From NCBI GenBank assembly GCA_034406715.1, contig CP137880.1, forward strand, positions 1-64,000: a DNA stretch of 64,000 bases, given 5' to 3'. How positions within the stretch are numbered: position 1 is the first letter of the stretch; each line of letters begins with the position of its first letter. Source of the DNA: Rhodotorula mucilaginosa. Lineage: Eukaryota > Basidiomycota > Microbotryomycetes > Sporidiobolales > Sporidiobolaceae. The position numbers were made by a program, and so were the translations under genes. Positions 58,482 to 63,404 of this stretch are shown here, in pieces. The notes under the pieces are model-generated. The model was given only the letters and a program-made list of their open reading frames with translations. It was not told where the DNA came from and did not search any database.

Positions 58482-59187
58482 CTAGTTGTTGAGTCGTGTC
58501 TGGAAGCCACACTTCTCACAAGAGTAGAAGACGGTAGCTGGGCGCAGGGACGTAGCACATTAGCACGAAGACCTGCCAAGTGCAGCAGCGCGCAGGGGGC
58601 GCAGATCTCACCTCCTTCGTCTGCAGCAGCGACAGCAAAGAGAAAAAAGCGCAGCGAGGTGTCAGTACTGAACGCTGGACCTCCTGGCTTGCCGACATCC
58701 CTGAACAGAGCACGCACCTGCAGACCGCAACTGCATCGTCTTGACAGACATCTGCTTGGCGCCGCACTTTTCGCAAGTCTCGTCGACCTGTCCGAAACCA
58801 GCGATGTCGCGTGGTCAGCATGACCGCATCCTCAGCTCGGCCGCGCCGTGCGCGCTGACGTACAAAGACCTTCTTCTTCTCGACGTCCCCGCGGTTCTTG
58901 ACCAAGCTGGTCTTGAGTTGTCGCAGCGACGAAGGGAACGCGGCCGGGTTCGACTTTGTCGTGATCACCTCGCCCTCATATGCTGCGAGCGCCGACGCCG
59001 ACCGAGTCAGTACTGGGGGGACGCGCACACTAGAGCAAAGCAGGGAAGCGTTCTACGCACCGGTCGCATCCTCGACCTGACCGCAGCCATCGCAGACGAG
59101 CTGATCCTCATCGCCAGGCAAGTCGAGCAGTGTGCCGCACCGCGAGCAGAAGATGAGCGAGCCGTACTGGTTCGCAGTCGAGGCCAT
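58482..59187 (-). CDS. RPA12: RNA polymerase I subunit A12.2
   Basis: Five exons (minus): 59187-59061, 58982-58864, 58787-58718, 58620-58612, 58537-58482, giving 126 residues (yeast Rpa12 has 125). The N-terminal zinc ribbon is FCSRCGTLLDLPGD with CDGCGQ. The C-terminal TFIIS-like ribbon is CEKCGAKQM, then MQLRSADEGATVFYSC, then EKCGFQTRLNN. The SADEG loop carries the Asp-Glu acidic hairpin that drives RNA cleavage by Pol I. Exon 4 is just 9 nt and encodes precisely Asp106-Glu107-Gly108. The gene converges on GET2. At exon 2 a donor at 58863 (GTACGT) is preferred to one 6 bases earlier. Confidence 0.93.
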
Positions 59188-60708: not shown

Positions 60709-63404
60709 ATGCCTGCCTTCAAAGAGACGTCGATCCACTCCAGCTTCTTCCCCGAAGCTGGGGACAACGAACGCGTCGAGCGCGTCTCGATCGTCGGCGC
60801 ACCACAGGCCAAGGGCATCAAGCGCTTCTTGCCCAAGCGGCAAAAGTCGCACGGACCCGTATTGCGGGACCTGGCAGAGGAGGGCGAGGGTGCCGAGGGC
60901 GCGTCTGGTCCGACGCCGCCAACGACTCAACCATCGACGCGTCGATCATCGCTCACCGCCGTCGGCGATGCCGCTGCCGTGGGTTGAAACCCTACTGGAA
61001 GTAGCACGCACAATACGTCTGACTCGTGTGCTTTCTGCAGGGCTCCGACGACACACACGAGAAGGGTGATGCGAACGAGAAGGAGGGCGCGCAGGGACCG
61101 GCCAAGTCGAACAACCCGGCAGACTTTGGGAACGACAAGATCGTTCTAGTCCAGTTCGAGGACGGTGACCCGGAGAACCCGCTCAACTGGTCCAAGAGCA
61201 AGAAGTGGGTGATTGTGAGTGCGCGCGCAACTTTCGATTCGGAGGCTTCCTTCACGCGATCGACCCTCGCTCCTTTGAACGGCACCGGATATGCTCGACT
61301 GACTTTGCGGCATTACAGACGATTCTCCTCGACGCCATGACGGTGGCCATCGGTCTCTCGACGACCGCGTACTCCTCAGGAATCAGCCGCATGACAGACG
61401 AGTTTGGCGTCGCCAACGTTGTCGGCCAACTTGGACTCACGACTTTCAACTGCGCGTGTGCCATCGCACCCTTGTTCCTGGCACCGTTCTGCGAGCTGGT
61501 CGGACGCCGCGAGGTATTCTTGTCGGCCTACTTCGGATTCACCGTCATCTTCATTCTCATCGCCGACGCGCCCAACATCGGCGCTGTCCTCGCCGGCCGT
61601 CTTCTCAGCGGGATCTTTGGGTCGTGCGGAACCATCCTCGTCGGTACGTTGGACCGGTGAATCTCTGGGAGAGGAAGTATGCTGATCCATCGTGTTCGGC
61701 CTTCTCAGGCGGAACTTTGGCCGACATCTGTAAGCCCTTTCCCGCACTCTATGCCCTTCCGGCTCGCCCGTGCCTCTTTTACTGCCATAGCGGAAAGCCC
61801 GCTGCACCGTAGATTGTCCTGGGACGCGGGCTGTCCGCGTCGGGGCGGCGATCGATCTTCCGGTCGCAGCTGGAACTGATTCTTTCCCCTCCCACACAGG
61901 GAACACTCGTGATCGTGGTATCCCTATGAGCACCTTTACATTCGCGGCTATATTCGGAACTATAGCAGCTCCCGTATACTCTGGGTAACTCCCTCACGGT
62001 GTCGGAACACGCATCAGAGTCCTGACCATAATTCCGGTACAAACAGGTTCATCGACCAGAGCCTCGGCTGGAGATGGGTACAGTGGATACACATGATCGC
62101 AAACGGCGTCCTGCTCGTTCTGGAGATCATTTTCCTGCGTGAAACGCGCGGCGCCAAGATCCTCGCTCGTCGTGCGAAGAAACTCCGCAAAGAAACGGGC
62201 AAGAACAACATTCGCGCGCCGGTCGAGCTCGAGAACGAATCCGTCAAGGATCTTCTGCATACCGCGTGCACGCGGTCCATCCTTCTTCTGGCCCGCGAGC
62301 CGGTCGTCCTCGCGTTCGGTCTCTGGATCGCCTGTGAGTCCTTCGTTATTCTCGCTTTGCTGCTTCTCGGGCGCTGCTGACCTATGGCCGGTTCACAGAT
62401 GCATGGGGAATCACGTTCACTCTGCTGAGCGCTATTCCTTTGTGCTTCCAGAACAACCACGGCTGGAGCGAAGGAATCGCCGGCCTTCCGTACCTCGCGC
62501 TCGTCGCGGGCTGCTTCATCGGTTTCGGCACCTCCCGGTGGTCGGACATCGTCTACGACCGCAAACGAGACGCCAACAACGGCATCCCGATCCCCGAATA
62601 CCGTTTGATTGGCGCCATGGCCTTCGCGTGGCTGATGCCCGCAGGACTTTTCATCTTCTCTTTCACGCAATACGGGTTCATCACGCCGGTCGCGCCTATC
62701 ATTTCGCTGGTGTGCATCCTGGTGAGTGTCACGGGCTAAAAAAGGCGGACTCGAGCACCTGCTGACGAGTCTCGCGCGCATTCTTAGGTCGGAATGTGAG
62801 TTGCGGTGTCAAGATCGTCGAAACACCCCGGAACTAACGACAAGGGACAACAGCTATCACGTCTTCAACACCGTCTACAACTACACGAGCGATGCCTACC
62901 CAGGTACGAACCCTCTGGGCGCTCCGAACGTGGCACCGAGCTTTGCCGAGCTTACCAATTTTTCGCAGAATACGCCTCGAGCGCCATTGCAGGACAGGGA
63001 CTCCGTGCGTGCCGTCTCGCCATGATTACACATAGGTGAGATTGGCTGACCCCTGTACCAACAGTCCGAAACATGTTTGGCGGTGTCACAGTACGTCGAG
63101 AATCTGTTTCAGAAGCTGAGCTACCAAGCTCTGATACGCCAGCGCCCGCCCGCAGCCCCTCTTCGCGAACCAGATGTTCAACGGCATGGGCTACCAATAC
63201 GCTGGACTCTTGCTCTCCCTGCTGGCGCTCCTCGCCGCCCCTTTACCGTTCATCCTCTTCAAGTACGGCGAACGGATCCGCGCCAAGTCCAAGTACGCGT
63301 CGAGCGACGACGAGCTCGAAAAGGAGCGAATCACGGACGACAACGTCAACGAGCGCGGCGTACCTTCGACCGAGGCGCAGTACACGAGTTCGTTCGCGGT
63401 CTGA
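60709..63404 (+). CDS. MFS drug:H+ antiporter (DHA1-type)
   Basis: Twelve exons: 60709-60978, 61041-61214, 61319-61643, 61709-61729, 61900-61984, 62047-62333, 62399-62721, 62788-62795, 62854-62903, 62969-63004, 63065-63090, 63156-63404, giving 617 residues. A hydrophilic N-terminus of about 120 residues ends in the DHA1-family string [14 protein letters not shown]. Twelve membrane segments follow in two halves, with AFGLWIAYAWGITF, motif-A-like [33 protein letters not shown] (the antiporter-like region, built from four small exons), and late [20 protein letters not shown]. Exon 8 is 8 nt and exon 4 is 21 nt. Such proteins export drugs, polyamines or organic acids at the plasma membrane; the substrate cannot be assigned. 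Confidence 0.9.

Follow-up and report, generated by a model that had tools for sequence, protein, structure and literature searches.

Structure and identity of the RPA12 gene

The window, a 64,000-nt stretch of Rhodotorula mucilaginosa DNA that sits on contig C17 of the genome assembly, carries on its minus strand (59187-58482) a predicted gene for RPA12 (A12.2), a subunit of RNA polymerase I (Pol I). Five exons of 127, 119, 70, 9, and 56 nt are predicted (59187-59061, 58982-58864, 58787-58718, 58620-58612, and 58537-58482), and joining them gives a 381-nt coding sequence for a protein of 126 amino acids. Exon 1 begins with the start ATG at 59187 and encodes the N-terminal zinc ribbon (Pfam Zn_ribbon_RPB9, residues 11-42), exon 2 encodes the linker, and exon 3 runs from the first CxxC of the C-terminal ribbon through ...QLRSA to the G of Asp106. 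Intron 3 (58621-58717, 97 nt, GTGCGT...GCTGCTGCAG) separates exon 3 from the 9-nt microexon (ACGAAGGAG, phase 1-1), and intron 4 (58538-58611, 74 nt, GTGAGA...GCGCCCAG) separates the microexon from exon 5, which reads ATVFYSCEKCGFQTRLNN followed by the stop. Elsewhere in the window, an open frame on the plus strand (61169-61660) resembles, by eye, a major facilitator transporter. The C-terminal part of a phenylalanine ammonia-lyase gene matches PDB 1t6j, from Rhodosporidium toruloides, at 310.9 bits with many differences, which suggests a Rhodotorula-like yeast distinct from R. toruloides.

An earlier note on this DNA had identified the gene as that of Pol I subunit A12.2, and alignment to RPA12 proteins bore this out. 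The best 3 of 12 structure-sequence matches are all to RPA12 (7aoc, 4.1e-26; 4c2m, 3.9e-23; 7ob9, 2.6e-19), and in these three alignments the predicted protein is ungapped through SADEG. Chains of TFIIS, RPB9, and RPC10 matched at 1.4e-6 or weaker. The spliced protein contains an N-terminal RPB9-type zinc ribbon (PF02150, 27.9 bits; cut-off, 25.2) and a C-terminal TFIIS-type ribbon (PF01096, Zn_ribbon_TFIIS) that scores 51.3 bits with the microexon and 29.8 bits without it. Skipping of the microexon thus costs 21.5 bits, and both forms pass the PF01096 cut-off of 21. In having two zinc ribbons, a linker, and a SADEG tip at which the C-ribbon aligns without gaps, the predicted protein resembles the RPA12 of the solved structures; the comparison is one of proteins, and in the gene described here introns on each side split the tip from the C-ribbon.

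When the RPA12 protein was searched against the 20.35-Mb genome in six frames, it matched its own locus alone, at four of the five exons; the microexon is absent from these matches because it is too short to score. No second RPA12 gene was found by this search. In six-frame searches of the genome with the Pfam models, PF02150 had no match, although the spliced RPA12 protein does match it, and PF01096 matched at three other places, none of them inside the window. These misses indicate that genes with short exons can evade such searches, so that the status of RPA12 as a single-copy gene is unproved.

The 9-nt exon and its flanking introns

The microexon (58620-58612, minus strand) is flanked by CTGCAG and GTGAGA and has phase 1 on both sides. 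Re-splicing reproduced the exon coordinates, flanking bases, and residue numbers of the earlier note (D106-E107-G108, as in the alignment to solved RPA12), as well as the frame-preserving skip product SAATVFYSC that it had proposed. Its description of the nine bases as encoding Asp-Glu-Gly named the right residues but was inexact at the edges. The bases divide as AC-GAA-GGA-G, in which the last two bases of the Asp106 codon are followed by the codons of Glu107 and Gly108 and by the opening base of the Ala109 codon; exon 3 supplies the first base of the Asp106 codon. Skipping is predicted to keep the frame and to yield ...QLRSAATVFYSC..., from which only the acidic pair and the Gly are lost and in which all four C-ribbon cysteines are kept. 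With 9 nt between predicted GT-AG introns that have branch-point-like sites, the exon falls within the microexon size range of 3 to 30 nt given in PMC11121469.

The proposal that fit to the RPA12 family requires an exon at 58612-58620 was upheld by an enumeration of GT-AG splicings (minimum intron length, 40 nt) in which the exon 3 start and the stop were held fixed and the products were filtered with a hand-written C-ribbon consensus. The reading frame is open in 8 of 158 one-intron and 245 of 1,925 two-intron combinations. The consensus is found in none of the one-intron combinations and in a single two-intron combination, making the 9-nt exon model the sole solution among 2,083 splicings. 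Five other open combinations keep DE and two CxxC pairs, two of them with SADEG, and none of the five has the full surrounding family sequence. Furthermore, a scan of both strands of 264 kb of this genome (528,000 strand-bases) turned up the pattern of (C/T)AG, in-phase Asp-Glu-Gly, and GT a single time, at the microexon itself, which gives a chance expectation of ∼3e-4 per 178-nt stretch with the microexon counted in. A search for relatives produced 3 pattern matches in viral contigs and 42 in prokaryote contigs, with none confirmed in either set. On this sequence evidence, the 9-nt RPA12 exon is predicted to be a real exon.

The flanking introns were assessed with donor, acceptor, and branch-site models trained on ab initio introns from the window and 200 kb of the same genome. 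The full set of 378 introns is noisy, with lengths that reach the 200-nt limit, and stricter subsets (n = 108 and n = 123) were also used. Intron 3 (97 nt) and intron 4 (74 nt) are of ordinary length, lying at the 69th and 45th percentiles of 108 introns with a median of 78 nt, and the 180-nt intron needed for skipping lies at the 93.5th percentile, all percentiles being approximate given the noisy ab initio reference. Intron 3 contains the branch-point-like sequence ACTGACA, with its A at 58662, 42 nt from the intron end (roughly the 76th percentile, n = 378), and intron 4 contains GCTAATG, with its A at 58560, 23 nt from the intron end, a weakish site at about the 30th percentile of the same set. 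Of the two acceptors, that of intron 3 outscores all 123 reference introns, and that of intron 4 is equaled or exceeded by 101 of the 123. The acceptor upstream of the microexon looks built for inclusion, and the downstream intron 4 is the weaker one.

Directly before the microexon acceptor, a T-rich tract is followed by TGC repeats (58651-58621, minus strand), a stretch that recalls the UGC signal of animal microexons. Three TGC lie in the last 20 bases of intron 3, as they do in 3 of 123 reference introns. A genome search with SRRM_C (eMIC, PF15230), the domain associated with the SRRM4 microexon programme of vertebrates, gave no match, as was also the case for 14 controls, and cwf21 was found at one place (65.1 bits). 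CTGCAG ends both exon 3 (58723-58718) and intron 3 (58626-58621, minus strand), so that a direct repeat marks both intron boundaries; it could be a trace of intron gain or an effect of the splice-site consensus. An introner-like origin was also considered; introns 3 and 4 each match themselves alone in the genome, which leaves recent gain from a repeated element unsupported.

Ribbon tips in TFIIS, RPC11, and a probable RPB9

The ribbon of TFIIS (locus L003) is distributed over three predicted exons. The middle one (L003 1504-1536, G000:C1:995370-995402, minus strand) is 33 nt long and frame neutral with phase 0-0, encodes the acidic hairpin MQTRSADEPMT, and is flanked by introns 69 and 73 nt long. 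The spliced TFIIS C-terminus aligns ungapped to Dst1 (5fmf, 1.6e-23). Skipping of the 33-nt exon is predicted to produce ...CMYYQTFVTCLSC..., in which both CxxC pairs are kept and the hairpin tip is lost. In the Pol III subunit RPC11 (locus L001), SADE is located on a predicted 91-nt exon, the skipping of which shifts the frame; the spliced RPC11 piece matches RPC10 of 7a6h at 3.5e-25.

Among 35 internal exons predicted in the genome, 11 are frame neutral in length, so frame-neutral length alone is weak evidence for a splice switch. The shortest of these 35 exons measures 49 nt, a floor set by the requirement of the method for 60 nt of flanking coding sequence to either side, and the set is uninformative on microexon frequency. 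The introns that flank the tip occupy different positions in RPA12 and TFIIS, which suggests that the small exons arose separately. With three genes considered and frame-neutral exons this common, the parallel between RPA12 and TFIIS is suggestive at best.

A further TFIIS-type ribbon match (L002 ∼1501-1581, G000:C16:128048-128128, plus strand) reads TSMTLFYNC, has no acidic pair, and by eye is likely RPB9 of Pol II.

Inclusion and skipping of the microexon

Of the domains of A12.2 in Pol I, the C-terminal one is reported to confer cleavage and the N-terminal one to act as an anchor, and full deletion of A12.2 slows growth (PMC8701712). The DE pair of Pol III C11, equivalent to that of RPA12, is required for cleavage activity (PMC8501072). 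By analogy, this backs the earlier suggestion that the acidic pair of RPA12 promotes cleavage, and loss of cleavage is predicted for the skip form. In the same report, C11 retains its recycling function in the DE-AA mutant and also after deletion of the hairpin (81-95); with DE-AA, some polymerases miss termination and overexpression is toxic, a termination defect that the hairpin deletion is described as not sharing (PMC8501072). Since these mutants differ, a three-residue skip form of RPA12 could resemble either one. The likeness lies in a subunit that becomes cleavage defective upon loss of the hairpin or the acidic pair while recycling is supported, and the difference is that the C11 changes are a laboratory deletion and a point change, whereas in RPA12 there would be a three-residue deletion made by splicing.

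We consider it very probable that the microexon is a genuine exon present in nearly every mRNA, with the short introns on either side each recognized alone and removed separately. This reading draws on the single solution among 2,083 splicings, the RPA12 alignments, the 21.5-bit loss upon skipping, the intron lengths, the branch sites, and the intron 3 acceptor, together with the microexons known from bglA genes, the comparatively low level of exon skipping reported for fungi (PMC6142364), and the predominance of intron retention in Cryptococcus neoformans (PMC5006051). Under intron definition, introns 3 and 4 would each be likely to be excised on their own. With the exon included, the A12.2 C-ribbon would carry Asp-Glu-Gly at its tip, a position from which these residues are predicted to promote the cleavage, by Pol I, of RNA that has backtracked. 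We infer that Asp-Glu-Gly was already conserved when it came to be bounded by a newly gained intron on either side, and that the exon did not originate through recruitment as a switch. Several observations count against constitutive inclusion. The weaker acceptor and weakish branch site of intron 4 make incomplete splicing conceivable, exon skipping has been reported as one of the kinds of isoform in C. neoformans var. grubii (PMC3990503), and the occurrence of frame-neutral hairpin exons in both RPA12 and TFIIS is a coincidence that regulation would explain.

Tiny exons flanked by short introns have been reported in the intron-rich bglA genes of basidiomycete yeasts, three of four of which contain microexons of <30 bp; in Rhodotorula minuta bglA, 10 of the 22 exons are microexons, the shortest being 6 bp (PMC9142197). 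The bglA product is a glycosidase, and the available part of that report makes no claim about a catalytic tip, whereas the RPA12 microexon corresponds almost exactly to catalytic residues. The RPA12 microexon would be a clean example of minimal exon size where introns are likely recognized singly. It also warns that catalytic residues may go missing when a universal polymerase subunit is annotated by gene predictors. A search of titles and abstract starts in the open-licence literature found no report on this RPA12 exon.

An unlikely alternative is that low-level skipping or intron retention occurs as functionless splicing noise. Neither intron 3 (97 nt) nor intron 4 (74 nt) has a length divisible by three, so RNAs that retain one of them are frameshifted and would be degraded. 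Such noise would fit the alternative splicing reported for C. neoformans, which is mostly intron retention and adds little protein diversity (PMC5006051). Should intron 4 fail to be spliced, intron definition would predict retention over skipping. However, noise of this kind is compatible with constitutive inclusion of the microexon.

A regulated splice switch of the kind suggested in the earlier note, in which a controlled fraction of RPA12 mRNA skips the exon and the resulting A12.2, with both ribbons, would join Pol I as a cleavage-dead subunit, is quite improbable and is best regarded as a testable long shot. It would account for an exon that is frame neutral, that removes exactly the acidic pair and the Gly when lost, and that leaves the four C-ribbon cysteines in place, and it would be in keeping with the frame-neutral hairpin exon of TFIIS and with the cleavage-defective yet recycling-active C11 mutants (PMC8501072). 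There is also a fungal precedent in the Xlr2 microexon of Trichoderma, likewise in a gene with a nuclear function, for which both inclusion and skipping are reported as demonstrated and glucose dependent (PMC11121469), while skipping of the RPA12 exon is hypothetical. In contrast, the strong splice sites of intron 3 and the position of the required 180-nt intron near the upper end of the reference lengths argue against a switch, as does the comparatively low level of exon skipping reported for fungi (PMC6142364). The termination defect and toxicity of C11 DE-AA indicate that a cleavage-dead form may do harm (PMC8501072). Saccharomyces cerevisiae lacking RPA12 is viable and slow-growing (PMC8701712, PMC8501072), and RPA12 and TFIIS are both described as non-essential in this yeast (PMC8501072).

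If skipping of the RPA12 microexon is real, it would be, to our knowledge, the first known case of splicing removing the cleavage tip of a polymerase. A broader version, in which splicing tunes cleavage by Pol I and Pol II together through the 9-nt RPA12 exon and the 33-nt TFIIS exon, is highly unlikely. If true, one splicing change would produce cleavage-dead RPA12 and TFIIS with their zinc-ribbon cysteines kept, and backtrack rescue would be slowed genome-wide under stress, with the Pol III subunit spared by its 91-nt exon.

The weakest explanation, in which the 9-nt exon would be an artefact of the alignment and Asp-Glu-Gly would instead be encoded by a longer exon or through another pair of splice sites, has almost no chance of being correct, because the two further two-intron combinations that hold SADEG in an open frame, with a longer exon reading SADEGGEICAPC, lack the family ATVFYSCxxCG, only the microexon model among the enumerated splicings yields the C-ribbon consensus, and the microexon pattern is so rarely expected by chance (∼3e-4).
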